A DNA stretch of 22,324 bases from Clostridiales bacterium (GTDB taxonomy: Bacteria; Bacillota_A; Clostridia; Oscillospirales; Oscillospiraceae): positions 1 through 22,324 of the forward strand of contig JALFGI010000097.1 in the NCBI GenBank assembly GCA_022777455.1. The letters run 5' to 3'. Positions 2,920 through 18,382 of the stretch are shown one piece after another. The first letter of the stretch is position 1, and the number at the start of each line of letters is the position of its first letter. The position numbers and the translations under genes are program-made. The notes beneath the pieces were generated by a model. That model worked only from the letters and a program-made list of their open reading frames with translations. It had not been told where the DNA came from and made no database searches.

Positions 2920-2929
2920 GGAGAACGAT

Positions 2930-3295: not shown

Positions 3296-3309
3296 GGAGA
3301 TGACATACA

Positions 3310-4854
3310 ATGCTTTGCCGTGCAATTCCTTATGAAGGGAAAGAACCCTATCTGTTTGTCAGTTACTGTCACGCCGACCAGGAGAAGCTCTATCCTCTGT
3401 TTGAGCAGATGGCCTCTGAGGGCTGCCGGCTGTGGTATGACGAAGGAAACCGCCCAGGGGAAGACTGGGTGGAAAACATCGAAGACCATTTGGAGCAGAG
3501 CAACGCCTGCCTGGCCTTTATTTCCTCCAGTTCCAGTCTGTCCCATAACTGCAAACGGGAGATTATTTTTGCCCTGAAATGCCGGAAAAAGGTGATACCG
3601 GTTCTCATTGAGGATGCTGAACTTCCCAAGGGACTGCGGCTTCAGTTGGCTGACATGCATTATCTGAAACGGTGGGACTTTCCCTCTGACAGGGAGCTGC
3701 TGAAAAAACTGTATGAGACCAAAGAAATCAAGGACTGTACATCCGGCAGCAGCGCCGGGCTGCTGCGTTCTGCAAGCGAGCAGATTCCCCCCGCAGAAAA
3801 GGAAACACCCGCCCAAAAGCCAGATGGGGGAATCCTGTCCCAGCTTTTTAGCGGCAGTCTCAAGCCCAGCAATCCGGACATCAAGCTGAAAAAGCCGGAG
3901 CCCGTCACGGAAAAAAAGGATGACCCGCAGAAAGAAAACGGTCACAATCCGGTCTCTGTCCACAAAGTGAAGGTGCGGGAAATCGTCGCGGTATCCAAGC
4001 GGAAGGAAAAGAAGCCGGAAGAAGAGGTGGAAATCCATACGGCTCTGGAAACAGATTCCAAGCCTCAGCCGGAGTGTTTTCCCCAAAATGATTCTGATCC
4101 TGATCAGGACGAAGGGACCATCCTCCAGAAATGTCCGGAAGTACCGGATGACGAGGGAACAGTTCTGGTTTCCGACTTTGACGATGAGAAAACGATTCAG
4201 GCCCCCCGTTTCAGTCCGGCGCTTCTTCTCTGCCCAGGCAAGGATCGGGCTTTCATTCTGAGCAAGCCGCAGATTACCCTGGGCCGCTCTCCCATCAAGT
4301 GCGATGTGATCATAGAAGGGAACGAGTCCATCAGCAAGCATCACGCGGATATCATCATGCTGAACGGAAAATACTACCTTTCTGACGCCGGCTCCACCAA
4401 CGGCACCTATCTGAACGGAGAACGACTGGAACCGGGCAAGCAGATGCAGTTGGAAAACCCCGCTATGTTCAAGCTGAATGATGAACGCCTGATCTTCTTC
4501 AGCGGCCCCTCGGTGAATCGTCTGGTTCATCTGGAAAGCATCGGTCTGCTGATGAACGAAACCGAAACGGCAGTACGTATCATTGACGAGGCCAGAGTTC
4601 CCCTGAACCGCTCCCATCGCTGGCCTGACGGAACTCTGGCGGATCTGGAGATTCACCGCCATGCCCACGCCGTGGTTTGCCTCGATCCGAGCGGCTACAG
4701 TTTGAAGGATGATAATTCCATAAACGGTACCTATCTGAACGGTATCCGGCTGGATCAGGGCGCATCATCATCCCTGTCTTCCGGCGATCAGATCACCCTG
4801 GGGAAAACCACATTACGCTTCTATTCCATTTCTTTGAAAGGGGATAAACAATGA
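3310..4854 (+). CDS. TIR domain protein with two C-terminal FHA domains
   Basis: 514 residues. Residues 12-136 form a TIR domain: the first strand and box YLFVSYCHADQ, then LWYDE (41-45), PGEDW (49-53), a Ser run (72-76) and CKREI (81-85), whose Glu84 is placed like the catalytic Glu of NADase-type TIR domains (inference). Residues 140-300 are a charged, low-complexity linker with three acidic-x-Thr motifs: DEGT (268-271), DEGT (281-284) and DEKT (292-295). FHA domain 1 spans about 315-397, with LGRS, SISKHHADI and GSTNGTYLNG, the canonical phosphothreonine-binding set. FHA domain 2 spans about 420-507; it keeps NSINGTYLNG but its R-S segment is less regular, so it may bind poorly. No membrane segment is seen. 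FHA domains read phosphothreonine, which fits the two Ser/Thr kinases and two PP2C phosphatases nearby. It could be a signalling adaptor or an immunity/effector enzyme. Confidence 0.88.
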   Translation: MLCRAIPYEGKEPYLFVSYCHADQEKLYPLFEQMASEGCRLWYDEGNRPGEDWVENIEDHLEQSNACLAFISSSSSLSHNCKREIIFALKCRKKVIPVLIEDAELPKGLRLQLADMHYLKRWDFPSDRELLKKLYETKEIKDCTSGSSAGLLRSASEQIPPAEKETPAQKPDGGILSQLFSGSLKPSNPDIKLKKPEPVTEKKDDPQKENGHNPVSVHKVKVREIVAVSKRKEKKPEEEVEIHTALETDSKPQPECFPQNDSDPDQDEGTILQKCPEVPDDEGTVLVSDFDDEKTIQAPRFSPALLLCPGKDRAFILSKPQITLGRSPIKCDVIIEGNESISKHHADIIMLNGKYYLSDAGSTNGTYLNGERLEPGKQMQLENPAMFKLNDERLIFFSGPSVNRLVHLESIGLLMNETETAVRIIDEARVPLNRSHRWPDGTLADLEIHRHAHAVVCLDPSGYSLKDDNSINGTYLNGIRLDQGASSSLSSGDQITLGKTTLRFYSISLKGDKQ

Positions 4855-6776: not shown

Positions 6777-6839
6777 GCAGCCTCCCGACTTTTCGCCCGG
6801 AAGAACGCCCCAGGCTATTTTTGTAAGGATGTGATCATC

Positions 6840-7544
6840 ATGCACTATACATATGCATCGTTATCAAACATGGGCGCCCGATCAAATAACGAGGATGCCC
6901 TGCGCGTCCGGAGCCGGGAGGGGAACCTGCTGGCCGTGGTGGCGGATGGTCTGGGCGGATACGACAACGGAGAGCTGGCCTCCCGGCTGGCCGTCGACTC
7001 CATTTTCCGGGAGCTGGAGCCGGAACAGGTGGACGAAGACACCCTGGCTTATTCCCTGATTCATGCCCACAGTGCGGTCCTTTCGGTCCGGAACTGCGGA
7101 AAAACCACTGCGGCGGCACTCTGGCTGTCAGAGAGCCTGGGCGCAGCTGCCCATGTGGGTGACACCCGGATCTACCAGTTCCGGGACGGGCGAATTGTGT
7201 TCCAATCCAAGGATCACAGCATGGTGCATCTGGCGCTGACGGTAGGCGAAATCACGGCCCAGGATCTTCGGCACCACAAGGACCGCAACAAGCTTTTCCG
7301 GGTGCTGGGAGAGGAAACCGAAAGCCCCAAGGTGGACAGCACCGAGCTGGACATCCGCCCGGGAGACCGGTTCCTTCTCTGCTCCGACGGTTTCTGGGAG
7401 CCGGTGACCGAGGAGGAGATGCTCCGGGACCTGGAAGCTTCCCAGACGCCCCAGCAGTGGCTGGACCGGATGGTTCGACGTATCTCGGATGCCGCCGATC
7501 CCAAACAGGATAACTATTCGGCAATCTGTATTTTTGTGGAATAA
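6840..7544 (+). CDS. PP2C-family Ser/Thr protein phosphatase
   Basis: 234 residues from ATG 6840, placed about 10 nt after AAGGAT; an in-frame GTG at 6831 is too close to that site. All PP2C metal-site motifs are present: RSNNED (Glu18, Asp19), VADGLGG (Asp36), HVGDTR (107-110), CSDGFWE (Asp183) and DNYS (Asp224, Asn225). There is no membrane segment or extra domain, so this is a compact cytoplasmic enzyme that removes phosphate from Ser/Thr residues in an Mn/Mg-dependent reaction. It follows the lipoprotein gene by 63 nt on the same strand and is the last gene before the peptide cluster. It probably reverses phosphorylation by the kinases at 11588 and 15692; a second, different PP2C lies at 18412. 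Confidence 0.9.
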   Translation: MHYTYASLSNMGARSNNEDALRVRSREGNLLAVVADGLGGYDNGELASRLAVDSIFRELEPEQVDEDTLAYSLIHAHSAVLSVRNCGKTTAAALWLSESLGAAAHVGDTRIYQFRDGRIVFQSKDHSMVHLALTVGEITAQDLRHHKDRNKLFRVLGEETESPKVDSTELDIRPGDRFLLCSDGFWEPVTEEEMLRDLEASQTPQQWLDRMVRRISDAADPKQDNYSAICIFVE

Positions 7545-7557
7545 TGCTTTCAAATAC

Positions 7558-7586
7558 TGTAACACCGGTCCGATTCCTGTGTATAC
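7558..7586 (+). promoter_or_regulatory. Candidate ECF-sigma promoter A (TGTAAC-N15-GTGTAT)
   Basis: TGTAAC lies at 7558-7563 and GTGTATAC at 7579-7586, separated by 15 nt. The same two blocks with the same spacing occur at 8039, 11137 and 15462. The -10-like block ends 42 nt before the start of the Pro/Phe peptide gene. Both halves carry an ACCGGT palindrome just downstream (7564-7569 and 7585-7590), seen only at this copy. Confidence 0.72.
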
Positions 7587-7626
7587 CGGTATGAAAGCAA
7601 AAACAAAACGCGAAAGGAGAAAAAAC

Positions 7627-7944
7627 ATGGAAGAAAAGCAGGCAAAATTGGAAGAACTCATGAAGGACGAGGCATTCGTGGATGCCATCTTTTCCAAGGA
7701 GAGTTCCGAAGAGGTACAGAAGCTGTTCGCCGAAAAGGGCGTGGAACTGACCATGGAAGAGGTTGAGGGCCTCGCTGCCGCGGTTCTGCAGGCTGCCCCC
7801 GAAGGGAACGGAGAGCTCTCCGAGGATGCCTTGGACTCCGTTGCCGGAGGAACTCACCGGTGGTTCCCTCGTCCGCTCCCCTTCCCCTTCCCCTTCCCCT
7901 TCCCCAGACCGCGCCCCGGCAAATGGCCCTGGATTCGGTGGTAA
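7627..7944 (+). CDS. Nif11-like leader peptide with Pro/Phe/Trp/Arg-rich core (precursor A)
   Basis: 105 residues from ATG 7627, with AAAGGAG seven bases upstream. Residues 1-75 are an acidic Nif11-like leader ending GELSEDALDSVAGG, the double-glycine site used by peptidase-type exporters. Cleavage would release a 30-residue core starting T-H-R-W: it contains RPLPFPFPFPFPRPRP followed by GKWPWIRW. It has 10 Pro, 5 Phe, 4 Trp, 5 Arg and 1 Lys, with no acidic residue and no Cys. The composition is like animal proline-rich and Trp-rich antimicrobial peptides (Bac7 carries RPLPFP, indolicidin carries KWPW). This is a resemblance by eye only and implies convergence, not descent. With no Cys and no Ser it is a poor lanthipeptide or sactipeptide substrate. 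It is preceded by promoter A and likely exported by the NHLM transporter. Confidence 0.85.
   Translation: MEEKQAKLEELMKDEAFVDAIFSKESSEEVQKLFAEKGVELTMEEVEGLAAAVLQAAPEGNGELSEDALDSVAGGTHRWFPRPLPFPFPFPFPRPRPGKWPWIRW
7879..7905 (+). repeat. In-frame hexanucleotide repeat (CCCTTC)4-CCC encoding (Pro-Phe)n
   Basis: Four perfect CCCTTC units run from 7879 to 7902, followed by CCC. They encode Pro-Phe four times plus Pro inside the core of precursor A. Because the unit is two codons, slippage would change the peptide length without shifting the frame. Confidence 0.9.
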
Positions 7945-8038
7945 AAATCGGTAAGGTTCTCATAGTTAAACAACTTTTCCAAGAAAAATTTGCCTCAATG
8001 AAAAAACTTGCGTGATGTTGAAAAAGCAACATTTAGAT

Positions 8039-8067
8039 TGTAACACGCGAGAGGCTGGCGTGTATAC
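8039..8067 (+). promoter_or_regulatory. Candidate ECF-sigma promoter B (TGTAAC-N15-GTGTAT)
   Basis: TGTAAC at 8039-8044 and GTGTATAC at 8060-8067 with a 15-nt spacer, matching promoter A closely, including the following CC and ATGAAAGC shared by both. It lies in the 183-bp gap between precursors A and B, 62 nt before the start of B. Just upstream, ATGTTG (8015-8020) and CAACAT (8027-8032) can form a small weak hairpin. The rest of this gap shows nothing else. Confidence 0.72.
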
Positions 8068-8127
8068 CAACATGAAAGCAACAGAGACTTAAACAAAACT
8101 AATAATATAACAAAAGGAGATTTAAAT

Positions 8128-8499
8128 ATGGAAACAATCAACATGAATGAAAAACTTCAGGACCTGATGAACAACAAGGAATTCATGGAAAGCATTCATA
8201 AAACCGCCAGCATTGAGGAGTATCAGCAACTGTTGGCTGCGAACGGTATTAACACTACTGTTGAGGAGCTGAAGGCTGGCTTTGAACAGGTTTCCTCTCT
8301 GGTCGGCGAAAACGGGGAGCTATCGGTTGAGGTGCTGGATGCCGTTGCCGGTGGGCGCGGTGTTAATGTACTGACACATCTCGGAGTTTGGGGGCAAATC
8401 GGATGTACCCTTGCAATGATGGCATGTGCAACAAATCCGGTAGGCTGGTATATCGCTGCGTGCGCTTGCGGTGCGGTTGCCCTGTGCAGCATGTGCTGA
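8128..8499 (+). CDS. Nif11-like leader peptide with hydrophobic six-Cys core (precursor B)
   Basis: 123 residues from ATG 8128, eight bases after AAAAGGAG; an in-frame ATG at 8143 is possible but less well placed. The leader, residues 1-76, ends GELSVEVLDAVAGG. The 47-residue core is strongly hydrophobic and Gly/Ala-rich, with six Cys, four of them in the last 15 residues (AACACGAVALCSMC). It has two Thr, one Ser and almost no charge, so it could form disulfides or be a substrate of Cys-directed modification; no such enzyme is encoded in the window. A long hydrophobic stretch could insert in membranes. It is the first gene of a B-C-D-E run under promoter B. Confidence 0.83.
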   Translation: METINMNEKLQDLMNNKEFMESIHKTASIEEYQQLLAANGINTTVEELKAGFEQVSSLVGENGELSVEVLDAVAGGRGVNVLTHLGVWGQIGCTLAMMACATNPVGWYIAACACGAVALCSMC

Positions 8500-8507
8500 T
8501 ATAGAAA

Positions 8508-8531
8508 ACTCGCTTGGGTTAGCAAGCGAGT
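8508..8531 (+). other. Intergenic hairpin without U-tract after precursor B
   Basis: ACTCGCTTG (8508-8516) pairs perfectly with CAAGCGAGT (8523-8531) across a 6-nt loop. No run of T follows, so it is unlikely to be an intrinsic terminator. It sits nine bases after the precursor B stop and 26 bases before precursor C, where it could block 3' decay or mark a processing site. Confidence 0.7.
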
Positions 8532-8556
8532 ACGCGTAACAGAAAGGATGATACTC

Positions 8557-8844
8557 ATGACAGTTATTAATGAAGAAAAGTGGAAAGCGTTAGAGCAGAA
8601 TGCCGAACTGAAGGCAGCACTGGAAACTGCAAATTCCCCCGAAATGGCTTATGAGATTCTGAAGCGCTATGGTGCAGATGTTTCGCTGGAGGAAGTCCGG
8701 GAAATGATCCAGAAAGAAGGAGTACTGTCCGAAAATGATCTGGATGATGTAGCCGGTGGTGTTGGTTGGCGTAGAGTTGTGGGCTTTAGAATTGTAATTT
8801 TGTTCAATCCGTTCCGCGTCAAGATGGTTCCGATCTACGGATAA
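8557..8844 (+). CDS. Nif11-like leader peptide with cationic Cys-free core (precursor C)
   Basis: 95 residues from ATG 8557; an in-frame ATG at 8548 overlaps the AAAGGA ribosome site and is rejected. The leader, residues 1-68, has the usual pattern (YEILKRYGADVSLEEV) and ends GVLSENDLDDVAGG. The 27-residue core begins VGWRRVVGFRIVILF and ends VKMVPIYG. It holds four Arg and one Lys, no acidic residue, no Cys, Ser or Thr, so it cannot be a lanthipeptide and is likely exported unmodified or only cleaved. Alternating cationic and hydrophobic residues resemble membrane-active peptides. It is 57 nt after precursor B and 47 nt before D, probably co-transcribed. Confidence 0.8.
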   Translation: MTVINEEKWKALEQNAELKAALETANSPEMAYEILKRYGADVSLEEVREMIQKEGVLSENDLDDVAGGVGWRRVVGFRIVILFNPFRVKMVPIYG

Positions 8845-8891
8845 TCGTATGTAACGAATATTAGGCACTAAATATTTAGGAGGAAACAACC

Positions 8892-9185
8892 ATGAACGAA
8901 AAAATGATGAAAATGGAAGAACTCATCAGAGATGAAGTGAAAGTCGCTGAAATTTTTACCGGCACCCCCGATGAAATCATGAAGAAGCTGGCAATGAATG
9001 GCATCGAATTGACTCAGGAAGAGTTTGATGCTATCTATGACGGTATTCACGAAGATGAGAATAGTGAAAACCTGAGTGAAAAAGACTTGGACGAAGTTGC
9101 CGGTGGATGCGGTGGTTGCTATAATTTCTGGAAGAAGGTCGGCAAGGCCATTGACAAAGCACTTCAGAGAATTTTTGGTCACTAA
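8892..9185 (+). CDS. Nif11-like leader peptide with CxxC and amphipathic cationic core (precursor D)
   Basis: 97 residues from ATG 8892, with an excellent TAGGAGGA site. The leader, residues 1-72, is the most typical of the set (MKKLAMNGIELTQEEF) and ends ENLSEKDLDEVAGG. The 25-residue core starts CGGCYNFWKKVGKAI and ends LQRIFGH: a CxxC pair followed by a segment that would form an amphipathic helix with four Lys, one Arg and one Asp. A disulfide within CGGC or dimerisation through Cys is possible. The helix looks like a membrane-active class II bacteriocin. It shares its leader end with precursor E (LDEVAGG), 37 nt downstream, and the two may act as a pair. Confidence 0.83.
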   Translation: MNEKMMKMEELIRDEVKVAEIFTGTPDEIMKKLAMNGIELTQEEFDAIYDGIHEDENSENLSEKDLDEVAGGCGGCYNFWKKVGKAIDKALQRIFGH

Positions 9186-9222
9186 TAAAAATATATAAAT
9201 AGTTCTAAAGGAGAGCAAAATT

Positions 9223-9528
9223 ATGAACGAAATGACTGCAAAAAAGCTTGCCGAAGTTATGAACGATGTAGAAGCTAACGAAAAGCTGGAATGCGCCAGC
9301 GGTATCGAAGAAATCACTGCCATTCTGAATGAGTATGGTGTGGAAATTACCGCAGCGGAACTGGAGGAAATTGTTGTAAAGTCTTCTGGTGAGGAATTAT
9401 CTCTGGAAAGTCTGGACGAGGTTGCTGGTGGTGGATGGTTTAAGAAAACATGGAAGAGCATTAAGGGGCACATTTCATCTGCATTGAATGGCCTGTTTGA
9501 TGGCTTCCTCGGTGGCTATTCCAACTAA
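9223..9528 (+). CDS. Nif11-like leader peptide with amphipathic Gly-rich core (precursor E)
   Basis: 101 residues from ATG 9223, with AAAGGAG nine bases upstream. The leader, residues 1-70, ends EELSLESLDEVAGG. The 31-residue core begins GWFKKTWKSIKGHISSAL and ends GFLGGYSN: a cationic N-terminal half followed by a Gly-rich hydrophobic half with GLFDG and GFLGG, both fitting the GxxxG helix-contact motif of two-peptide bacteriocins. It has no Cys. It is the last precursor in the run and is followed by a hairpin and the CPBP gene. Confidence 0.83.
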   Translation: MNEMTAKKLAEVMNDVEANEKLECASGIEEITAILNEYGVEITAAELEEIVVKSSGEELSLESLDEVAGGGWFKKTWKSIKGHISSALNGLFDGFLGGYSN

Positions 9529-9553
9529 TTTCAGGGTCCAGAATCAAAAAAGG

Positions 9554-9592
9554 AAGGAAGACGGCAAACAAGCTTGTCTTCCTTTCTTCTCT
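9554..9592 (+). terminator. Possible intrinsic terminator or attenuator after precursor E
   Basis: AAGGAAGAC (9554-9562) pairs with GTCTTCCTT (9576-9584) across a 13-nt loop, followed by TCTTCTCT. The tail is T-rich but interrupted, so termination may be partial, giving lower expression of the CPBP gene than of the peptides. Confidence 0.5.
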
Positions 9593-9623
9593 ATCCTGCA
9601 TAGAGAAAAATGAGGTGAATATA

Positions 9624-10526
9624 TTGAAGAATCTTATAGCTGCAGAATATCCTGTAATAGAAGAAGCCAGAAAAACAGGCAGAGGAAACTCATTTTTCTT
9701 GGAACTGATAAAGTCAACGATTGTCCTTTTTGTAATGATTTGCATCACAGGCGTAATATCAGATCTGCTTTGCGCCTTCATCCCGGAAGATGTCGCCCGT
9801 GAGCCATGGGATAATATTTTAATTCTTTACAGTGAAATATTCAGTATTGGAATTGGAATCATCTATTGCACTGTATTTGAACAGCGAAGCCTTCGGAGTG
9901 TTGGATTTTCTCATCCCATTTGTAAGCCATATGGAATTGGCGCTTTTTTAGGGATACTGGTTATTTCTCTGGTCGTACTCATCAGTACAATTTGCAAAGG
10001 ACTGCACTTTTCCTATATCAATACGAAAGTAAGTATTCCAATCCAGACATTATTACTGGGTGGCTTTATCGTTCAAGGATTATCCGAAGAGGTTCTATGC
10101 AGAGGATATATCTTCGTATCCATCGCTCGAAAGAGTAGTGTTCCTCTCGCCTGCTTGGGAAGTTCTGTCTTATTCTGCCTGATTCACATTTTCAATGATG
10201 GCTTTTCTTTCATACCTATGCTGAATTTGATTTTGTTTGGAATTTTAGAATCATTGTTGTTTCTGAAAACAAACAACATATGGACAGCCGGCGCATTTCA
10301 CAGTGTTTGGAATTATATGCAGGGGTGTGTGTACGGATTAAACGTCTCCGGAAATGGTTTTGCTGATTCCATTTTTGTTTTTGAGCAAACTGACAAAAAG
10401 CTTGTCAATGGCGGTGTATTCGGACCTGAAGGAAGTATCATTGTAACAATTGTGTTGCTTATAACATTGGCCGTGTTAGTCGCAATAATGCATCAAGAGG
10501 CGGCTAAGAAACAGGGAAAAAACTGA
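9624..10526 (+). CDS. CPBP-family intramembrane metalloprotease
   Basis: 300 residues if started at TTG 9624, six bases after GAGGTG; an in-frame GTG at 9615 lies inside that ribosome site. Several hydrophobic segments span residues 30-50, 70-85, 104-123, 142-152, 172-190, 198-214 and 273-290. The CPBP (CAAX protease and bacteriocin-processing) signatures are present: SEEVLCRGY (Glu155, Glu156, Arg160), LIHIFND (His188) and HSVWN (His226, Asn230). The family includes bacteriocin self-immunity proteins and processing enzymes in Gram-positive clusters. Its position right after five leader peptides supports immunity, or leader or core maturation. The gene is visibly AT-richer than the flanking kinase and exporter genes. 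Confidence 0.88.
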   Translation: MKNLIAAEYPVIEEARKTGRGNSFFLELIKSTIVLFVMICITGVISDLLCAFIPEDVAREPWDNILILYSEIFSIGIGIIYCTVFEQRSLRSVGFSHPICKPYGIGAFLGILVISLVVLISTICKGLHFSYINTKVSIPIQTLLLGGFIVQGLSEEVLCRGYIFVSIARKSSVPLACLGSSVLFCLIHIFNDGFSFIPMLNLILFGILESLLFLKTNNIWTAGAFHSVWNYMQGCVYGLNVSGNGFADSIFVFEQTDKKLVNGGVFGPEGSIIVTIVLLITLAVLVAIMHQEAAKKQGKN

Positions 10527-10579
10527 TGGTATGTGCCATAAACGTAATACCTTCCTTATCAATCCTGCAACAACGCAGT

Positions 10580-11119
10580 TTACCCATCCAGCGCAAACTC
10601 TTTCCACTGCTCCAAGCCTATCGCTGACAATTTATCAATGGCCCTGGACAGCAGCACCCGGGCGTTTCCGGGGGTGATGCCTAAGTGCCGGGCGATTTCA
10701 TCCCCGGAGCGGTTTTCAAAGTAGCGCATTTTCACGATCATCTGCTGCCGTTCGGGGAGCCGGGAGATGGCCTGGAGCAGTTTTTCACGGAGCTGTTCCA
10801 GGTAGATTCCCCGGTCCAGGTCAATTCCCATGTCCTGCAGGGTTTCGGCGATTTCGTCGTAGTCCTCGCTGATGACGTGATCCCGATAGTAGTTCTTGAT
10901 GCGGCTGTTGGTGATCAGGTACAGCCAGGTGGAGCGCTTTCCCTTAGCGGGGTCGTAGTCGCTGTAATGCCGGTAGCAGTAAACAAACACCTCGGCAGTC
11001 AGGTCCTCGGCATCTTCCCTGTGGGAGATTTTTTTATAGACATAGTTCAGCACCCGGTTGTAATTGTCCCGATAGAAGGTTTCATAGTCCGGCTGCTGAC
11101 CGTTAAAGGAAATCAGCAT
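10580..11119 (-). CDS. ECF-type RNA polymerase sigma factor
   Basis: 179 residues on the - strand from the ATG complementary to 11117-11119, with GGAG ten bases upstream. Region 2 spans about 13-80: EDAEDLTAEVFVYCYRH (35-51) then STWLYLITNSRIKNYYRD. Region 4 spans about 112-165: LPERQQMIVKMRYFENRS, then the helix-turn-helix EIARHLGITPGNARVLLSRA. The size and absence of regions 1 and 3 fit the extracytoplasmic-function group. It is convergent with the CPBP gene (53 nt between stops) and divergent from the 60-residue gene at 11197. No anti-sigma gene is adjacent. The four TGTAAC-N15-GTGTAT sites in the window are plausible targets, one of them in its own upstream gap but pointing away. How it is controlled is not visible. 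Confidence 0.9.
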   Translation of the reverse strand: MLISFNGQQPDYETFYRDNYNRVLNYVYKKISHREDAEDLTAEVFVYCYRHYSDYDPAKGKRSTWLYLITNSRIKNYYRDHVISEDYDEIAETLQDMGIDLDRGIYLEQLREKLLQAISRLPERQQMIVKMRYFENRSGDEIARHLGITPGNARVLLSRAIDKLSAIGLEQWKEFALDG

Positions 11120-11136
11120 GTTTTTTCACTCCGATC

Positions 11137-11165
11137 TGTAACGGTTTGATTCACTGCGTGTATAC
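11137..11165 (+). promoter_or_regulatory. Candidate ECF-sigma promoter C (TGTAAC-N15-GTGTAT)
   Basis: TGTAAC at 11137-11142 and GTGTATAC at 11158-11165 with a 15-nt spacer, reading toward the 60-residue gene whose ATG is 33 nt beyond the -10-like block. It lies in the divergent gap upstream of the sigma gene. No matching motif reads toward the sigma gene on the opposite strand. Confidence 0.72.
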
Positions 11166-11196
11166 AGTGGTAGAATCACGTTTTGGAGGTGTTGCC

Positions 11197-11379
11197 ATGA
11201 AAAAGAGCATGGAGCAGATGCTGAAGCTGGTGGCAGATTTTGAAGCGTTCTGCGCACCGACTGCCGAAAGCCAGGCGACTTTCGATGGCGATGAATTGGA
11301 CGCAGCGGAGCTGGATCTGATTGCCGCCGCCGGAACCATCCCTCCCCACGCGGAGCAAAAGCCCGGCCCAAAGGAGTAA
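11197..11379 (+). CDS. 60-residue peptide gene, probable divergent leader-peptide relative
   Basis: ATG 11197 follows GGAGGT by about seven bases, and a strong terminator follows the stop. The sequence begins MKKSMEQMLKLVADFEAF and has DELDAAELDLIAAAG at residues 32-46. That stretch parallels the leader ends of the five precursors (GELSxxxLDxVAGG), with A-A-A-G in place of V-A-G-G. The remaining 14 residues (TIPPHAEQKPGPKE) are short and polar, unlike the other cores. It shares the ECF-type promoter with precursors A and B. It may be a shrunken or regulatory precursor, or an unrelated small protein acting on the neighbouring sigma factor. The single-gene unit is clear; the function is not. 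Confidence 0.7.
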   Translation: MKKSMEQMLKLVADFEAFCAPTAESQATFDGDELDAAELDLIAAAGTIPPHAEQKPGPKE

Positions 11380-11389
11380 TCAACCAAAT

Positions 11390-11417
11390 GCGCCCCGTCC
11401 CACCGGGGCGCTTTTCT
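11390..11417 (+). terminator. Intrinsic terminator after the 60-residue gene
   Basis: GCGCCCCG (11390-11397) pairs perfectly with CGGGGCGC (11404-11411) across a 6-nt loop, followed immediately by TTTTCTT. It begins 10 nt after the stop codon and isolates the small gene from kinase 1. Confidence 0.92.
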
Positions 11418-11477
11418 TATGCTGTTCATTTTTTCCGGTTTATTCTATCATTTTTTTCGTAAGGATACAATAGGTAG

Positions 11478-11506
11478 TTGTGCAATTCTGAAAAATATGT
11501 TATATT
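11478..11506 (+). promoter_or_regulatory. Candidate housekeeping (sigma-A-like) promoter for kinase 1
   Basis: TTGTGC (11478-11483), a 17-nt spacer and TATATT (11501-11506) lie 81 nt before the chosen start of kinase 1 (ATG 11588). The -10 matches TATAAT at five of six positions, the -35 at only three. No TGTAAC-N15-GTGTAT element is present here, so kinase 1 may be constitutively expressed while kinase 2 is induced. Confidence 0.5.
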
Positions 11507-11587
11507 TTAACAATGAGGGATAGGCTTGTTTTCACGTTCAGCCATGCGCTTCCAAGCCGGTCTTATACACAGAAAGAGGAGACTTCT

Positions 11588-14500
11588 ATGGAACAAACAG
11601 CATCCTGGCCCGGGTGGGAGACGGTACGGCTGATTGGCCGGGGGAGTTTCGGGGCGGTTTATGAGATTCAGCGGTCGCTTTTCGGCGAGGTGGAAAAGGC
11701 GGCGCTGAAGGTCATTACAATTCCTCAGAACGTCAGTGATATTGAGGAACTGCGCAATGAAGGTTTCGATAAGGAAAGCATCACGGATACCTTCAAGAAC
11801 CATCTGAAAAGCATTGTGGCCGAGTATTCCCTCATGCGGAAAATGAATGGCAGTGCCAACATTGTCAACTGCGACGACGTACGCTATGTGCAGCACGAGG
11901 ACGGCATCGGTTGGGATATCTACATCAAGATGGAACTGCTGACGCCGCTGACGAAGACGCTTCCCGACGCGATTCCCGAAGAAACCGTCATTAAAATTGC
12001 CCTGGATTTGTGTTCCGCGCTGGAACTGTGCAAGAAACACGACATTGTGCACCGGGATATCAAGCCCCAGAATATCTTTGTGTCCGACAATGGGGATTAT
12101 AAGCTGGGCGATTTCGGTATTGCCAAAACGGTAGAAAAAACCATGAGCGGTACCAAGATCGGCACCTATAAGTACATGGCTCCGGAGGTTTATAACAACC
12201 AGCCCTACGGCAGCGCAGCAGATATTTATTCCCTGGGGCTGGTGCTCTATTGGATGCTAAATGGGCGCCGGATGCCTTTCTTACCCCTGCCGCCGGCAAA
12301 ACTCAGCGCTGGCATGAACGAAGCGGCCCGCGCTCGCCGTCTGGCGGGAGAGCCTGTTCCAGCGCCCAAAAATGGCAGCGAGGGACTGAAAGCCATTGTT
12401 TTGAAAGCCTGTGCCTATGAGCCGAAGGAGCGCTATACCGACGCCAGGCAGATGAAGGAGGCGCTGGAGCATTTGTCTGTGACCTCTGAGAGGCCGGAGG
12501 AAAAAGGAACCGTAGCAGTACGGAAACCCATGGCAGGAAAGAAAGTGCCAGTCGTGCCCCTTCGTGAAGAAGTGGCGGAATCGGACGCAACCATTGTGTC
12601 CGCTGTCCAGAAGCCCTTCTCCGGGCAGGAACAGAAGAATGCGCCCCATGCTGCTCCCAAAAAGCGGAGGAGGTCTTTGATTGCCGCAGCCTGCATTCTG
12701 GTAGGAATCATCGTCTGCGGTTCCGTGTTTCTCCTTGGCAAAGGCTCCAGACAAACTGAGATGGCCGCCGGGCCAACCATCGGGGCTACAACGGAAGTGA
12801 CCACTGAGGCCATGACGGAGGCACCTACCGAGGACGAGACTGCCCGCTTGGATGCGGCATATGCTGCCGCAGAGCAATTGCTGCAAGCTGAGAAATACGA
12901 TCAAGCCATTGCTGCCTTTGAAGCGCTGAACGGTTATAAAGACAGTTCTGCGCAGATTGAAATTGCCCATCAGCAGAGCCAATATGCAGAAGCGGAAGCC
13001 TTGGCGCAATCCGGGAAAACCGCAGAAGCGGCTATCGCATTCTATAAACTTGGAGATAAGCAGCGAAGTTTTGCACTTTGGGACGAAGTGGCAGTGCGGG
13101 ATACCATATCAGGAATCGAGCACACTGTAGGCATAAACTCTGATGGTACTGTGGTAGCTGTGGGAGATAATAGATTTAGCCAGTGCAACGTCGGCAGTTG
13201 GAAGGACATTATCGCCATCAGCGCAGGTGATGATTACACCGTTGGTCTGAAGTCTGACGGCACTGTGGTGGCTGTGGGAGATAATAGATCTAGCCAGTGC
13301 AATGTCGGCAGTTGGAAGGACATCGTAGCCGTCAGCTCTGGTTCGGTACACACCGTAGGCCTGAGATCCGACGGTACTGTGGTAGCTGTGGGAGATAATG
13401 GGTTTGGCCAGCGCGATGTCAGCGACTGGACAAACATTGTTGCCGTCAGCGCAGGTTACGGACACACCGTAGGCCTGAGATCCGACGGCACAGTGGTGGC
13501 TGTGGGACATAATGAGTTTGGCCAGTGTGATGTCAGTAGCTGGAAGGACATCACCGCCGTCAGTGCCGGTTACGGACACACCGTAGGCCTGAAATCCGAT
13601 GGCACTGTGGTGGCTGCAGGACATGATAGCAGCAGCTGGGAGTACATCACCGCTGTCAGCGCGGATTCTGGATACACAACAGATCCGAAATCCGACGGCA
13701 CTGTGGCAGCTGTAGGAAATAATTGCAGCAGCTGGAAGGACATCATCGCTGTCAGCGCGGGTGCAATGCATTTTGTGGGGCTTCAATCTGACGGCACTGT
13801 GGTGGCTGTGGGAAATAATGGGTTTGGCCAGTGCGATGTCAGCAGTTGGAAGGACATTATCGCCATCAGCGCAGGTGATGATTACACCGTTGGTCTGAAG
13901 TCCGACGGCACTGTGGTGGCTGTGGGACTTGATGAGTATGGTCGGTGCGATATCAGTGGTTGGAAAGACATGAAACGCCCCCCCATCAGCGCGGAGCACC
14001 AAGCAAAGCTGGACGAGGCCAGGCAGGCATTTGAAGCACAGCAAGCAGCAGATTATGCCGCCGCAGAGGAATTGCTGCAAGCCGGGAAATACGATCAAGC
14101 CATCGCTGCTTTTGAGGCGCTGAATGGCTATCGAAACAGTACCGCACAGATTGAAATTGCTCGTCAACAGAGCCAATATGCAGAAGCGGAAGCATTGGCA
14201 CAATCCGGGAAAACCGCGGAAGCTGCCATTGCATTCTACAAACTGGGGGACAGGCAGCGGAGTTTTGCGCTCTGGGACGAAGTAGCAATACGGGATACGA
14301 TTAGCGCTCAAGGCTTTCACACCGTGGGCCTGAAAGCAGATGGCACAGTGATGGCTGTGGGAGATAACGAGTTTGGCCAATGCGATATCGGCAGCTGGAA
14401 GGACATCATAGCCCTCAGCACAAGTTTTGACCACACTGTAGGCCTGAAATCCGACGGAACTGTGGTGGCTGTGGGAGATAATGAGTATGGCCAATGCGAT

Positions 14501-15439
14501 GTCAGCGACTGGAAAGACATTGCTGCCATCAGCGCGGGATTTGGACACACCGTAGGCCTGAAAGCCGACGGCACTGTGGTGGCTGTGGGAAGTAATGAAA
14601 ACATGGATGGCAATTATGTTGGACAGTGCGATGTCAGCAGCTGGAAGGATATCATAGCCGTCAGCGCGGGAGCGGCACATACCGTAGGCCTGAAATCCGA
14701 CGGCACTGTGGTGGCTGTGGGAAGTAATGAAAACATGGATGGCAATTATGTTGGACAGTGCGATGTCAGTAGCTGGAAGGACATCATAGCCGTCAGTGCG
14801 GGATTTGGACACACTGTAGGCTTGAGATCCGATGGCACTGTGGTGGCTGTTGGCGATAATGAGTATGGCCAATGCGATGTCAGCAGTTGGAAGGACATCA
14901 TAGCCGTCAGCGCGGGATTGGTACACACCGTAGGCCTGAAAGCCGACGGCACTACTATGGCTTCTCCTGATATAAGCCTGCTTGATGTTAGTGTTTGGGA
15001 GAACATCGTAGCTGTCAGCGCGGGAAGCCTTCATACGGTAGGCCTGAAAGCCGACGGCACTGTGGTGGCTGTGGGAGATAATGAGTATGGCCAGTGCGAC
15101 GTTGACGACTGGAAAAACATCAAGCTCCCTTCCTCTTCCGAAGAAATGCAGAATGCTGCAAATCAGTCAGTGAAATCGGCATCAACAGAAGACGTTCAGA
15201 GTGCGGGGGCAAGTGGAAATAGCAGCACTCAGGCATCAAACAAGTCACAGCCTGTGACCAACCCCACGGAAAGTACTGCCCCCTCGTACACACCGGTCTA
15301 TACTCCGCCGACGGAACAGACTGTACCGCTGGAAACTTCTCCGACAGAACCAACTACTGAAACATCTGGTGCCGCATGGTGGATGAATGATGAAATCATT
15401 CCTGACGAAGGATGTGCAACGGGAACTTCCGGAAATTAA
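11588..15439 (+). CDS. Transmembrane Ser/Thr kinase with TPR-like and RCC1-like ectodomain (kinase 1)
   Basis: 1283 residues from ATG 11588, six bases after GAGGAG; an in-frame ATG at 11513 has no ribosome site. The Hanks kinase domain is residues 10-295: GRGSFGAV loop (18-25), Lys41, HRD 155-157, DFG 175-177, activation-loop Ser/Thr (187-193) and APE 198-200, all intact. The cytoplasmic tail carries EKGT (306-309) and SDAT (332-335). A basic stop KKRRR precedes one membrane segment, about 364-384. The outside part has a Thr-rich stalk, a TPR-like module (425-508), eight RCC1-like repeats, a second copy of the TPR-like module, seven more repeats, and a Thr/Pro-rich end. The repeat core is HTVGLKSDGTVVAVGDN then GQCDVSSWKDI. 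Such a propeller-like ectodomain suggests ligand sensing or cell-wall contact, signalling by phosphorylation inside. Confidence 0.92.
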   Translation: MEQTASWPGWETVRLIGRGSFGAVYEIQRSLFGEVEKAALKVITIPQNVSDIEELRNEGFDKESITDTFKNHLKSIVAEYSLMRKMNGSANIVNCDDVRYVQHEDGIGWDIYIKMELLTPLTKTLPDAIPEETVIKIALDLCSALELCKKHDIVHRDIKPQNIFVSDNGDYKLGDFGIAKTVEKTMSGTKIGTYKYMAPEVYNNQPYGSAADIYSLGLVLYWMLNGRRMPFLPLPPAKLSAGMNEAARARRLAGEPVPAPKNGSEGLKAIVLKACAYEPKERYTDARQMKEALEHLSVTSERPEEKGTVAVRKPMAGKKVPVVPLREEVAESDATIVSAVQKPFSGQEQKNAPHAAPKKRRRSLIAAACILVGIIVCGSVFLLGKGSRQTEMAAGPTIGATTEVTTEAMTEAPTEDETARLDAAYAAAEQLLQAEKYDQAIAAFEALNGYKDSSAQIEIAHQQSQYAEAEALAQSGKTAEAAIAFYKLGDKQRSFALWDEVAVRDTISGIEHTVGINSDGTVVAVGDNRFSQCNVGSWKDIIAISAGDDYTVGLKSDGTVVAVGDNRSSQCNVGSWKDIVAVSSGSVHTVGLRSDGTVVAVGDNGFGQRDVSDWTNIVAVSAGYGHTVGLRSDGTVVAVGHNEFGQCDVSSWKDITAVSAGYGHTVGLKSDGTVVAAGHDSSSWEYITAVSADSGYTTDPKSDGTVAAVGNNCSSWKDIIAVSAGAMHFVGLQSDGTVVAVGNNGFGQCDVSSWKDIIAISAGDDYTVGLKSDGTVVAVGLDEYGRCDISGWKDMKRPPISAEHQAKLDEARQAFEAQQAADYAAAEELLQAGKYDQAIAAFEALNGYRNSTAQIEIARQQSQYAEAEALAQSGKTAEAAIAFYKLGDRQRSFALWDEVAIRDTISAQGFHTVGLKADGTVMAVGDNEFGQCDIGSWKDIIALSTSFDHTVGLKSDGTVVAVGDNEYGQCDVSDWKDIAAISAGFGHTVGLKADGTVVAVGSNENMDGNYVGQCDVSSWKDIIAVSAGAAHTVGLKSDGTVVAVGSNENMDGNYVGQCDVSSWKDIIAVSAGFGHTVGLRSDGTVVAVGDNEYGQCDVSSWKDIIAVSAGLVHTVGLKADGTTMASPDISLLDVSVWENIVAVSAGSLHTVGLKADGTVVAVGDNEYGQCDVDDWKNIKLPSSSEEMQNAANQSVKSASTEDVQSAGASGNSSTQASNKSQPVTNPTESTAPSYTPVYTPPTEQTVPLETSPTEPTTETSGAAWWMNDEIIPDEGCATGTSGN
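12860..13111 (+). repeat. TPR-like module, copy 1 of kinase 1 ectodomain
   Basis: Encodes a helical module with KYDQAIAAFEALNGY and KTAEAAIAFYKLGD, ending RDTIS. A nearly identical copy lies exactly 1194 nt downstream at 14054-14305, each followed by an RCC1-like array, showing duplication of a whole ectodomain unit. Confidence 0.85.
13118..13972 (+). repeat. RCC1-like repeat array 1 (eight units of about 38 residues)
   Basis: Units share HTVGLxSDGTVVAVGxN followed by GQCDVSSWKDIIAVSAG; most are about 114 bp. Units five and six are shortened by loss of the FGQCDV segment. DNA identity between units is high, so recombination or slippage is likely. Confidence 0.88.
14054..14305 (+). repeat. 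TPR-like module, copy 2 of kinase 1 ectodomain
   Basis: Second copy of the 84-residue module at 12860-13111, with only scattered substitutions such as NGYRNS for NGYKDS. It follows a short linker (AEHQAKLDEARQAFEAQQ) and precedes the second RCC1-like array. Confidence 0.85.
14315..15124 (+). repeat. RCC1-like repeat array 2 (seven units)
   Basis: Seven further units. Units three and four both carry the inserted SNENMDGNYVGQCDV segment and are almost identical in DNA, indicating a recent tandem duplication of one unit. Unit six is degenerate (ASPDISLLDVSVWENI). Confidence 0.88.
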
Positions 15440-15461
15440 CTCGTAAAAGAATCGAATCTCC

Positions 15462-15490
15462 CGTAACGTTTGTTTCGATTCGGTGTATTT
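15462..15490 (+). promoter_or_regulatory. Candidate ECF-sigma promoter D (CGTAAC-N15-GTGTAT)
   Basis: CGTAAC at 15462-15467 and GTGTAT at 15483-15488 with the same 15-nt spacer as copies A-C; the first base and the last two of the -10 block differ. An inverted repeat, GAATCGAA (15449-15456) and TTCGATTC (15474-15481), brackets the -35 block. It reads toward the RCC1 relic and kinase 2, 203 nt before the kinase 2 start. Confidence 0.62.
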
Positions 15491-15527
15491 ACATAGATGT
15501 AGGCACAACACATCCGAAAGGAGAAAT

Positions 15528-15676
15528 GAGTACTGGAAGAATGCTGCTGCTATCAGCGCAGGAAAACACTGCACGGCAGAAATAATGTTGATGGCACACT
15601 GATCGCTGTGGGGGACAACTAGTCCGGCCAATGCGACATAGTCGACTGGAGAAACATCAAGTTTCCGGCAAAATAG
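15528..15676 (+). pseudogene. Relic of an RCC1-like repeat gene end
   Basis: From 15528 the frame reads EYWKN then AAAISAGKHCTAEI; a frameshift near 15585 leads to VDGTLIAVGDN, an in-frame TAG at 15620, then SGQCDIVDWRNIKFPAK and a stop at 15674. Each piece aligns with the RCC1-like units of kinase 1, and the ending matches its last unit (DDWKNIK). A GAAAGGAG site precedes it. This is a decayed end of a third repeat-bearing gene, left by deletion between the two kinases. Confidence 0.8.
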
Positions 15677-15691
15677 AAAAGAGGAATTTTT

Positions 15692-18382
15692 ATGGAACAA
15701 ATAGTAACCTGGCCCGGATGGGAAACGGTACGGCTGATTGGTCGGGGAAGCTTTGGAGCGGTTTATGAAATTCAGCGGACGCTGTTCGGTGAGGTGGAAA
15801 AGGCGGCTTTAAAGGTCGTTACAATCCCTCAAAATGCCAGCGATATTGAAGAATTGCGCAGCGATGGCTTTGATGAGGAGAGCATCACCGACTCTTTCAA
15901 GAATCATCTGAAAAGCATTGTGTCCGAGTATACACTTATGCGGAAAATGAACGGCTGCACAAATATCGTCAACTGCGACGACGTGCGCTATGTGCAGCAT
16001 GAGGACGGCATCGGTTGGGATATCTACATCAAAATGGAGCTGTTGACTCCATTGGCAAAGACTCTCCCCGATGAAATTTCCGAGGATACCGTCATTAAAA
16101 TAGCCACGGATTTGTGTTCCGCCCTGGAGCTGTGTGAAAAATTTGGCATCATTCACCGAGACATCAAACCCCAGAATATCTTTGTGTCCGACAACGGGGA
16201 TTATAAGCTGGGTGATTTCGGCATTGCCAAGACGGCGGAAAAGACGATGAGCGGCACCAAGATCGGCACCTATAAGTACATGGCTCCGGAGGTTTATAAT
16301 AATCGGCCTTACGGAAGCGCTGCGGATCTCTATTCTTTGGGTCTGGTGCTCTACTGGCTCTTGAACGAGCGTCGTATGCCCTTCCTGCCGCTGCCGCCTG
16401 CAAAGCTCAGTGCGGGCATGGACGAAGCGGCCCGCGCTCGCCGCTTGGCGGGAGAACCGATTCCCGCACCCAAAAACGGCAGCGAGGGACTGAAACAGAT
16501 CATCCTGAAAGCCTGCGCCTATGATCCAAAGGAGCGCTATCCGGATGCAAAGAAAATGAAGGAAGCGCTGAACAAGCTGCGCACAGCTGTGCCCGAGGAG
16601 CAGGAGGAGCAGGAGGAGCAGGATGAAGATGCAACAGTAGTTAATTACAGGTCCTCGGCAAAAGGATGCGCGCGAACTGACATGCCGGGAGGCAGCGTTC
16701 CTGCCACGGAGGTAGAAAAACCAGTGCAGCCCTCCCCTGACCTAGGATCTGTTCCGGAGGCAAAGCCATCTTCTACGTCCCAGAAGCGGAAGAATATTAC
16801 CGAGCCAAAAAGCAAAGATTCGGGTGCCGCAGTATCTCCCCCGCCCCAAAAAAGGAAAAAGCATAAACCGGTAAAAATATTGCCAATTGCCTGCCTGGTC
16901 ACGCTGATCATGATTCTGTCTCTGGTGACTGTTGGATGGTTCAACTGCTGGTTTGGACATCAATGGAGCGAAGCAACCTGCACTTCCCCCCAAATCTGTC
17001 AGAGGTGCGGTACCCAGAGTGATAAGATTGCGGAGCATCAATGGAGCGAAGCAACCTGCACCTCACCACCCACCTGCCAGATATGTGGCGCCCAGGATGG
17101 TGAGGTTTTGGGACACCAATGGAGCGAAGCAACCTGCATCTCCCCCCAAACCTGCCAGAGATGCGGTGCCCAGAAGGGCGAAGCTTCGGGTCATCAGTGG
17201 AGCGAAGCAACCTGCACTTCCCCCCAAACCTGCCAGGTGTGCGGCACCCAGAGGGGGGAGGTTCTGGAACATCAATGGACCGGAGCAACCTGCTCCTCCC
17301 CCCAAACCTGTCAGGTGTGCGGCGCCCAGAATGGTGAGATTTTGGGACATCAATGGAGCGAAGCAACCTGCACCACAGCCCAGATCTGTCAGCGGTGTGG
17401 TGCCCAGAATGGTGAAGCTTTAGGACACCAATGGAACAAAGCAACCTGCGCCGCAGCCCAGACCTGTCAACGGTGTGGTGCCCAGGAGGGTACAGCTTTG
17501 GCGCATCGATGGAGTGAGGCCACCTGCACCACGGCTCAAACTTGCCAATTGTGTGGAGCGACCATGGGAAAACCTTTGCCGCATTCATGGGCAGACGCAA
17601 ATCAGAACTCAACTTATTGCAAGGTCTGCGGCATAAAAAAGAATAAAATGATGCCTTCGGAAAATTTGGGGTACATGAGCTTGGATAAGAGGAAGGATGC
17701 ATTCCTTTGGGGACAATCAACCTTCCGCAGAAGTGACGTTACGTCGATTGTATTCTCCGGTGCGATTGACAAAGCCCCCGCCAGTGCGTGGGATGTATCT
17801 GCCTCCCGTGACAAAAGTGTTCTTGCTTGGTTGGATAAAGGCCGCCTGACAATTGCATCTGACGGAATTATCGGTGCGCATCCGAATTCTTCGTGGCTGT
17901 TTGCAGAGTTCAGAAATGTAACATCCATTGATTTTTCGGATAGATTTGATACATCCACCGTTTCAAATATGAATGCGATGTTTTCGGGCTGTTCGGCTGT
18001 TCGTGAGTTGGATCTTTCTGCATTTCGTACTTCCAAAGTATCCGATATGGGCGGCATGTTCAACAATTGTAATGAATTGGTGTCCGTGGATGTTTCGAGC
18101 TTTGATACATCAAATGTCCGCCACATGCAGTGGATGTTCGGGCAAAACAGCAAACTGAAAAGCCTTGATATTTCGAACTTTGATACAAGTCGTGTTATGG
18201 AGGATGGTTTCATCTTCTATTATTGCTCACAACTATCCAGTGTTACCCTCCCCAAAAACATGTCCAGAATTGGCGCTTCGGCGTTTGAGGGTTGTGCAAA
18301 CTTGAAAGAAGTTACCATCAGTCGGAGCTGCGCCGTTCAGGATGGGACTTTCCCGAAGGGCTGCACTGTGAAGTACTATTAA
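15692..18382 (+). CDS. Transmembrane Ser/Thr kinase with Cys-rich repeats and BspA-like ectodomain (kinase 2)
   Basis: 896 residues from ATG 15692 with AAGAGGA upstream. The kinase domain (10-295) is nearly identical to kinase 1: GRGSFGAV, Lys41, HRD 155-157, DFG 175-177, APE 198-200. The tail has an acidic run EEQEEQEEQDEDATVV (303-317) holding an acidic-x-Thr motif, then a Pro/Lys-rich stretch. One membrane segment spans about 395-416. Outside, residues 423-655 are eight 26-residue repeats and a worn ninth: H-x-W, five residues, Cys, six residues, CxxCG. This spacing suggests a small metal- or disulfide-stabilised knuckle. Residues about 660-896 are BspA-like: FDTSTVSNMNAMFSGC and FDTSNVRHMQWMFG (DUF285 type), then a leucine-rich end (IGASAFEGC). 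It probably senses an extracellular surface or peptide cue and signals inside; PP2C follows 29 nt later. Confidence 0.92.
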   Translation: MEQIVTWPGWETVRLIGRGSFGAVYEIQRTLFGEVEKAALKVVTIPQNASDIEELRSDGFDEESITDSFKNHLKSIVSEYTLMRKMNGCTNIVNCDDVRYVQHEDGIGWDIYIKMELLTPLAKTLPDEISEDTVIKIATDLCSALELCEKFGIIHRDIKPQNIFVSDNGDYKLGDFGIAKTAEKTMSGTKIGTYKYMAPEVYNNRPYGSAADLYSLGLVLYWLLNERRMPFLPLPPAKLSAGMDEAARARRLAGEPIPAPKNGSEGLKQIILKACAYDPKERYPDAKKMKEALNKLRTAVPEEQEEQEEQDEDATVVNYRSSAKGCARTDMPGGSVPATEVEKPVQPSPDLGSVPEAKPSSTSQKRKNITEPKSKDSGAAVSPPPQKRKKHKPVKILPIACLVTLIMILSLVTVGWFNCWFGHQWSEATCTSPQICQRCGTQSDKIAEHQWSEATCTSPPTCQICGAQDGEVLGHQWSEATCISPQTCQRCGAQKGEASGHQWSEATCTSPQTCQVCGTQRGEVLEHQWTGATCSSPQTCQVCGAQNGEILGHQWSEATCTTAQICQRCGAQNGEALGHQWNKATCAAAQTCQRCGAQEGTALAHRWSEATCTTAQTCQLCGATMGKPLPHSWADANQNSTYCKVCGIKKNKMMPSENLGYMSLDKRKDAFLWGQSTFRRSDVTSIVFSGAIDKAPASAWDVSASRDKSVLAWLDKGRLTIASDGIIGAHPNSSWLFAEFRNVTSIDFSDRFDTSTVSNMNAMFSGCSAVRELDLSAFRTSKVSDMGGMFNNCNELVSVDVSSFDTSNVRHMQWMFGQNSKLKSLDISNFDTSRVMEDGFIFYYCSQLSSVTLPKNMSRIGASAFEGCANLKEVTISRSCAVQDGTFPKGCTVKYY
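16958..17655 (+). repeat. Tandem 78-bp Cys-rich repeats (nine units) in kinase 2
   Basis: Units start with CATCAATGGAGCGAAGCAAC or a close variant at 78-bp intervals from 16958. The protein consensus is HQWSEATCTSPQTCQRCGAQ followed by about six variable residues. The ninth unit (HSWADANQNSTYCKVCG) lacks the first Cys position. The variable tail between units (for example NGEILG, KGEASG, EGTALA) shows most divergence. Confidence 0.9.

Follow-up and report, generated by a model that had tools for sequence, protein, structure and literature searches.

The stretch of DNA considered here, called the window in what follows, comprises 22,324 nt of contig JALFGI010000097.1 of a Clostridiales bacterium. 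It encodes a putative peptide export system and an extracytoplasmic function (ECF) sigma factor (10580-11119, - strand), and it carries four copies of a two-block DNA element, TGTAAC-N15-GTGTAT, whose probable role as the promoter of that sigma factor is the subject of this report. A pattern scan of the window finds the element exactly three times, always on the + strand: at 7558-7584 (copy A, with the -35-like TGTAAC at 7558-7563 and the -10-like GTGTAT at 7579-7584), at 8039-8065 (copy B) and at 11137-11163 (copy C). Copy D, at 15462-15488 (+), has one mismatch, C replacing the first T. A preliminary description of this DNA had placed the blocks at 7558, 8039, 11137 and 15462 with an identical 15-nt spacer and had noted the deviant base of copy D, and the scan bears it out on both counts. 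Its statement that each copy reads toward a nearby start holds for copies A, B and C, which lie 42, 62 and 33 nt from the next gene start, and fails for copy D, where the gap is 203 nt.

The repetition is far from random. Three more sites, at 3240, 8427 and 15358, match the element with two mismatches; allowing up to two mismatches, the window has seven matches, whereas 100 shuffles average 0.46 and never exceed 3. At a single fixed spacing there are three exact pairs, where 0.002 would be expected from the counts of the two hexamers, and when spacers of 10-22 nt are scanned, exact and one-mismatch pairs occur solely at 15 nt (3 + 1). Copies A and B extend beyond the core, both reading TGTAACAC-N13-GTGTATAC-N4-ATGAAAG. 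Copy C keeps solely the AC after GTGTAT, and copy D has none of the three extended parts. The same element can also be read as TGTAAC-N16-TGTATA, a layout that is usual for ECF promoters; promoters of the sigma-W type have an AAC ... CGTA layout. A sigma-A promoter reading was considered and rejected: no + strand sigma-70-type site lies on copies A-D, and a single - strand site (9/12) overlaps copy B.

Copy A is the predicted promoter of precursor A (7627-7944, +), which has a double-glycine (GG) leader and a Pro/Phe/Arg-rich tail (TIGR03798, E 4e-5). Copy B is the predicted promoter of precursor B (8128-8499) and probably of precursors C (8548-8844, with its start perhaps at the ATG at 8557), D (8892-9185) and E (9223-9528; TIGR03798, E 1e-6, and Pfam Nif11, the latter likewise below cut-off), all on the + strand and all with GG leaders. 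TIGR03798 matches the precursors 5/5, every time under its 32.3-bit cut-off (best match 28.9 bits). A hairpin located after precursor B and before precursor C (8508-8531) is terminator-like on the - strand only, and a weaker + strand terminator-like site lies inside the fourth precursor; a single transcript from copy B through precursor E is plausible. A CPBP/Rce1-like membrane protease (9615-10526, +; Pfam PF02517) stands at the end of the B-E array, next to the sigma gene.

Divergent from the sigma gene is a gene for a 60-residue leader-like protein (11197-11379, +) with Ala-Ala instead of Gly-Gly, here called the AA peptide. Copy C is its predicted promoter. A strong terminator-like hairpin (11390-11411, +) follows this gene, and copy C therefore probably serves it alone. 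The element had been said to link the precursor genes, the sigma locus and kinase 2; at the sigma locus, copy C reads toward the 60-residue gene and away from the sigma gene. A bidirectional reading that would explain the sigma gene's own expression was rejected: the window scan, with up to two mismatches allowed, gave no match on the - strand.

Copy D lies ahead of kinase 2 (15692-18382, +), a protein kinase with a DUF285/leucine-rich repeat (LRR) part assigned by Pfam, and is a doubtful promoter. The intervening segment (15489-15691) contains, by eye, RCC1-repeat-like pieces in two frames with stops, perhaps the decayed tail of a kinase-1-like gene, and copy D is followed by an AGGAG-ATG that opens a very short reading frame.

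The remaining genes assigned by domain searches frame these. Upstream, on the + strand, are an NHLP exporter subunit of the permease/ATPase type (91-2919; TIGR03797 at 745.2 bits, cut-off 709.4), a STAS-domain protein (2909-3295), a protein with TIR and two FHA stretches (3310-4854), a BspA-type LRR protein (4851-6776; Pfam LRR_5) whose start looks lipoprotein-like by eye, and a PP2C phosphatase (6831-7544). Downstream of the AA peptide gene come kinase 1, a protein kinase with RCC1 repeats (11588-15439, +), then kinase 2, then a second PP2C phosphatase (18412-19173, +) and, about 1.6 kb after it, a LytTR response regulator (20772-21476); the STAS, TIR-FHA, phosphatase and kinase assignments are all from Pfam. 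Among the 17 window proteins scanned there was neither a peptide-modifying enzyme nor a known anti-sigma domain.

The element in related genomes

Genome-wide counts of the motif come from the genomes of relatives, designated G001, G591, G056 and G650. A scan of genome contigs for the sigma factor found two loci, both in G001, an uncultured Clostridia genome, and each has three exact copies of the element directly ahead of GG-leader genes. The genome-wide search for the motif and its downstream genes, which the preliminary description had proposed, was run in this relative: it yielded 11 exact copies of TGTAAC-N15-GTGTAT, against 0 in the reversed control, and all 11 precede genes of the kinds that make up the system. 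Eight of these copies are distinct, the three on contig C29 repeating those on C27. GG-leader precursors lie downstream of seven of the 11 (four distinct), and at C27:2930 the precursor is followed by the sigma gene, an HlyD-type protein and two ATP-binding cassette (ABC) genes, ABC1 and ABC2. One copy is followed by a 71-residue AA peptide, then STAS, then an FHA protein that matches TIR weakly; three are ahead of zinc-ribbon or LRR proteins, named by eye, and the weakest case is on C39, where the protein start is ~413 nt from the element. The G001 exporter matches TIGR03796 (981.7), TIGR03797 (758.7) and TIGR03794 (167.2), all above cut-off.

The extension seen in copies A and B recurs at the eight distinct G001 sites, with TGTAACAC in 8/8, GTGTATAC in 7/8 and an exact ATGAAAG at the corresponding place in 3/8, the rest having variants of it. 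Directly after the ATGAAAG-like block in G001, inspection by eye finds short inverted repeats whose arms differ yet remain complementary (GGTG...CACC versus GGC...GCC) and which are perhaps 5'-end mRNA hairpins; such repeats were not seen at the window copies. C27 and C29 hold one and the same cluster, including its three motif copies, and in both a transposase lies downstream, again by eye.

G001 also has what appears to be a second system of the same design. At E 0.01 TIGR03798 marks 25 precursor-like places in this genome, five of which follow the element just described (motif 1). The remaining 20 are spread over C3 (16), C23 (3) and C5 (1), contigs lacking exact motif 1. Upstream of some of the C3 and C23 precursors is a different element, TATCCC-N15-CGTATAAA. 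It was derived by visual inspection of four upstream regions, so that four of the 11 matches below fit by construction: WWTMCC-N15-CGTATAAA (motif 2) occurs exactly 11 times in G001, against 0 in the control, with eight sites on C3, two on C23 and one on C30. In the loci read (nine of the 11 sites, the C30 site and C3:107851 lying elsewhere), seven are ahead of precursors, one of these being a second copy immediately before another, and C3:121490 and C3:128774 are the sites that do not precede a precursor. The order at the C23 locus is HlyD-type, ABC1, ABC2, motif 2, precursor, precursor, a 62-residue AA peptide and a second ECF sigma factor (G001:C23:34000-50000, 1140-7282); TIGR03794 matches there in part, and ABC1 and ABC2 are above cut-off. 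This second sigma factor is 26% identical to that of the window and 34% identical to the first sigma factor of G001. A different sigma factor with a different element before the same kind of gene is what the sigma-promoter reading predicts, and we count the pair, as a putative orthogonal sigma/promoter-like set, in favor of that reading.

Beyond G001, the element is at background level in the order. Across the 245 genomes of G001's order, it is the sole genome enriched for the exact element; the other 18 matching genomes have 20 matches in all, and the reversed control has, by our own count, 30 across the 245. When the first reading frames after all 20 matches were inspected, one copy, in G056, was found to have an ABC2 gene on one side and, on the other, the gene of a 72-residue AA peptide. 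The locus thus located by motif encodes a sigma factor (175 bits) ahead of an HlyD-type gene, ABC1 and ABC2, with matches to TIGR03796 and TIGR03797 above cut-off and to TIGR03794 below it (148.2, cut-off 156.2), and a one-mismatch copy of the element precedes the only TIGR03798 match in this genome, a small peptide gene. The motif alone predicted the system in G056.

G591 was found by the sigma profile. It has an exact copy of the element 215 nt before the ATG of its sigma gene and a one-mismatch copy before a short VVGG peptide, an AA peptide, STAS and TIR. The TIR protein of this locus (16688-18190 of its stretch) has a C-type lectin domain and a weak PASTA match below cut-off, and no FHA match. 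At the relatives' loci exact pairs of the two blocks are found at a spacing of 15 nt only (10), and over the 16 sites compared the core and its spacing are nearly fixed, three of them having one mismatch and 14 having A after TGTAAC. The element, its spacing and its conservation, together with its association with this sigma factor and these kinds of gene, are matters of direct observation.

The sigma factor and the assignment of the element

The window's sigma factor has Sigma70_r2 at residues 15-81 and Sigma70_r4_2 at 111-164 of 179, the two-domain arrangement that defines an ECF sigma factor, and matches TIGR02937 above cut-off. Nothing beside it has a recognisable anti-sigma domain, its neighbours being the CPBP protease and the 60-residue protein, for which no Pfam or NCBIfam match was found at E 0.01. 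The sigma factors of three relatives (G001, G591 and G056) are 35-39% identical to it, that of G001 35%. The DAED motif is kept: all four of its residues are invariant in 19 aligned sigma rows, the window's among them, and the G591 protein, which lies outside that alignment, reads LAED. Homologs of the window's sigma factor number 433. In a survey of the class, 12 of 391 genomes pass 1e-28; the loci examined are those of G001 and G591, and the other 10 score 103-117 bits. G001 and G650 pass 1e-38 among the 148 genomes of G001's family, and G001 only among 398 genomes of the phylum; in the family (16 genomes) and order (31 genomes) of G591 the match is in G591 only. Among viral contigs the sigma alignment picked out 18 weak matches, 24-35% identical. 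As a negative control, TGTAACAC-N13-GTGTATAC was found in five stretches of viral contigs, and their open reading frame (ORF) lists, read by eye, showed no GG-leader gene or sigma gene at the motif.

Taken together, these comparisons make it very probable that the element is the promoter of the ECF sigma factor encoded at 10580-11119, which would directly start the precursor genes and the 60-residue gene; copy D may belong to the set or not. The neighbouring sigma factor would itself be what reads the element. Some outside signal would reach it through the receptor-like kinases, the phosphatases and the FHA and STAS proteins, whose domains are what suggests that they carry the input. The sigma factor would then turn on precursor A through copy A, precursor B and probably C-E through copy B, and, through copy C, the divergent gene for the leader-like protein. 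In the relatives it would also turn on the exporter/sigma operon and the STAS-TIR operon, closing a positive loop. Transcription would start near the ATGAAAG block, as judged from the microbisporicin cluster, whose transcripts begin 8-10 nt past the ECF consensus (PMC4973701).

A number of observations weigh against this reading, or limit it. None of the window's copies faces the sigma gene itself. The relatives with such a locus that were examined number three, and 10 class genomes with weaker sigma matches stand outside the comparison. G650, whose sigma match is not much lower (159 bits), shows no motif and no exporter over the 20 kb inspected by eye, and for the exact copies on G591:C101 and G650:C10 no link with the system is evident. 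In G591 the first ABC gene matches TIGR03796 below cut-off (597.7 versus 853.3), the second matches no family at E 1e-150, and no TIGR03798 match is found at E 0.01. One-mismatch pairs at the relatives' loci are as common at other spacers (9 total versus 4 at 15 nt), and in the G001 genome there are 5 matches with one mismatch, fewer than the 11 that the control gives when up to one mismatch is allowed.

The last of these figures bears on the individual copies. A matrix was built from the eight distinct G001 sites alone and its scores were compared with the maxima of 60 simulated sequences. The four highest-scoring sites in the window are the four copies: B 34.5, A 26.7, C 9.3 and D 5.1. The largest simulated maximum was 12.7, and copies A and B exceed them all; the score of copy C is exceeded by 4/60 simulated maxima and that of copy D by 7/60, further points on the debit side. 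By matrix score, then, copies A and B stand alone; for C and D it is the core match that counts. The preliminary description had proposed one local regulon of the sigma factor comprising precursor A, precursors B-E, the 60-residue gene and kinase 2. For copies A, B and C, assignment as promoters of the neighbouring ECF sigma factor is well supported by the occurrence of the element at the sigma/exporter loci of three relatives. For kinase 2 it is not established: copy D is doubtful as its promoter because of the mismatch, the missing extended bases, the weak score, the 203-nt gap and the background level of one-mismatch matches in G001.

It could be argued from the same figures that only copies A and B and the relatives' sites are real, and that C and D, which lack most of the extension and score within the simulated range, are chance or decayed copies. 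We regard this as unlikely, in that the core of copy C is exact and stands 33 nt ahead of a gene with relatives in G001 and G056, each of them likewise preceded by an exact copy. Another ECF sigma factor of the cell might read the element, with the neighbouring sigma factor acting elsewhere: ECF-like matches are several per genome (12 in G001, 4 in G056) and the tie between sigma and element is one of association. This is very improbable when the only genome enriched for the element order-wide, G001, and the one found by motif, G056, both encode this sigma group at the matching locus, and when the exact copy in G591 lies 215 nt before the ATG of this sigma gene.

Nor need the blocks be a promoter at all. 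TGTAAC and TGTATAC, which have TGTA in common, could form direct repeats with a period of 22 bp, close to two turns of the helix, and would then be an operator bound by an activator protein, for instance the LytTR regulator that the window encodes. There is little to recommend this proposal. The sister element of G001, TATCCC-N15-CGTATAAA, has the same geometry and no direct repeat; the window scan, allowing up to two mismatches, finds no copy near the LytTR gene, or anywhere beyond 15488; and no LytTR-like gene was seen in the ORF lists of the element-bearing G591 and G056 stretches, which were read by eye with no family search.

The Ala-Ala peptide

A first search gave 12 homologs of the 60-residue protein and a profile search 53. 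The leader-like part ends in E-L-D-x-(I/V)-x-A-A where the precursors carry V-A-G-G. Reading the sequences by eye, Ala-Ala is found in 51 of the 53, the exceptions being P0124, with Ala-Val, and P0170, which is cut short; Gly-Gly is found at the aligned place in none of the 53, so that the double-glycine cleavage site is absent. (A simple pattern script returns 41 AA, 8 SA, 1 AV and 3 without a pair; in the 8 SA rows the sequence is V-S-A-A, one place out of register.) C39 peptidase substrates typically end in GG, GA or GS (PMC6363468), and the AA peptide is therefore probably not cleaved at Ala-Ala. AlphaFold, given a 38-row alignment of the window protein and 37 of the 53 homologs, predicts three helices (mean predicted local distance difference test score, pLDDT, 74; predicted template modelling score, pTM, 0.34), a model too uncertain for fold comparison.

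What recurs is the pairing with sigma. In the window the AA peptide gene is divergent from the sigma gene; in the second system of G001 it shares one base with an ATG start of the sigma gene, and in the first system of G001 and in G591 it precedes STAS. The longest contig is 8963 bases for both the homolog P0122 and the sigma factor P0004, which suggests, short of proof, that these two are linked. In G650 a more distant small gene, without the AA pair, is divergent from the sigma gene. This family of leader-like AA peptides beside sigma genes is new here, and it is the most unusual part of the system. The AA peptide is a candidate partner of the sigma factor, a likely one in our view, and perhaps its inhibitor; by one means or another it would control sigma.

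FlgM is a small anti-sigma factor that couples transcription to secretion in flagella. The AA peptide shares with FlgM and NepR (for NepR, PMC8999054) its small size and a genetic pairing with a sigma factor. It resembles an export leader, unlike proteins of the FlgM/NepR type, and the likeness drawn here is one of genetic pairing. Its resemblance to a leader, the probable lack of cleavage, its production under sigma control and its pairing with sigma prompt a more specific idea, which is speculative and rather improbable: that it is a leader mimic reporting export traffic, one that would bind sigma while the exporter is either idle or full and let it go once precursors flow. Transcription would be coupled to secretion, as with FlgM, a decoy leader here serving as the gauge. 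A literature search, judged by title, turned up no related work on an anti-sigma factor with a leader peptide in the context of ECF sigma factors or of ribosomally synthesized and post-translationally modified peptides (RiPPs). The presence of a leader look-alike beside sigma genes raises the question of how a system of this kind could monitor its own export.

Relation to known systems

The closest precedent is the microbisporicin cluster of Microbispora corallina, in which MibX and MibW are an ECF sigma/anti-sigma pair and GAACC-N15-GCTAC lies 8-10 nt upstream of the starts (PMC4973701). The window system is like that of MibX in having a pathway-specific ECF sigma factor, a two-block N15 consensus before several operons of one peptide cluster, and a presumed positive feedback. 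As described in that source, the microbisporicin precursor operon lacks the consensus and the anti-sigma MibW is co-transcribed, whereas in the window the precursors carry the element; the exporters and leader types of the two systems also differ. From the other side, the window resembles the NHLP/Nif11 clusters (Haft 2010, PMC2887384) in its arrays of GG-leader genes and in its exporter, with TIGR03797 in the window and both TIGR03796 and TIGR03797 in G001 and G056. In comparison with the NHLP/Nif11 systems described there, the sigma factor, AA peptide, STAS and TIR-FHA genes are additions; the main text of that paper does not contain the word sigma, and it mentions a large Ser/Thr kinase beside Burkholderia precursors. 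Control of NHLP/Nif11 clusters by sigma-factor switching was not found in a literature search from whose coverage most subscription journals fall outside. The window system would add a new form to the peptide clusters under ECF control.

NHLP/Nif11 export clusters being known, what a dedicated ECF sigma factor with a portable 27-bp promoter adds is a DNA signature by which small precursor genes can be found; the same signal marks the same kinds of gene, those for small exported peptides, in distant relatives. It also suggests the sigma factor as a candidate inducer for silent clusters.

The kinases call to mind a third precedent, the EcfP/PknT pair (ECF43), in which an ECF sigma factor is likewise encoded near protein kinases (PMC8999054). 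EcfP, as described there, lacks the acidic DAED motif of region 2.2 that the window's sigma factor keeps. Kinase activation of the strict EcfP type was accordingly considered and rejected, DAED being invariant in the aligned rows. Other kinase-linked ECF groups keep DAED (PMC8999054), so that phosphorylation may act here by another route.

The two kinases of the window are themselves a curious pair. Their kinase parts (11588-12487 in kinase 1, 15692-16591 in kinase 2) are 87% identical over 296 residues and their tails differ, RCC1 repeats in the one and Cys-rich HQWSEATC repeats with DUF285/LRR in the other, as though one sensor part had been exchanged for another.

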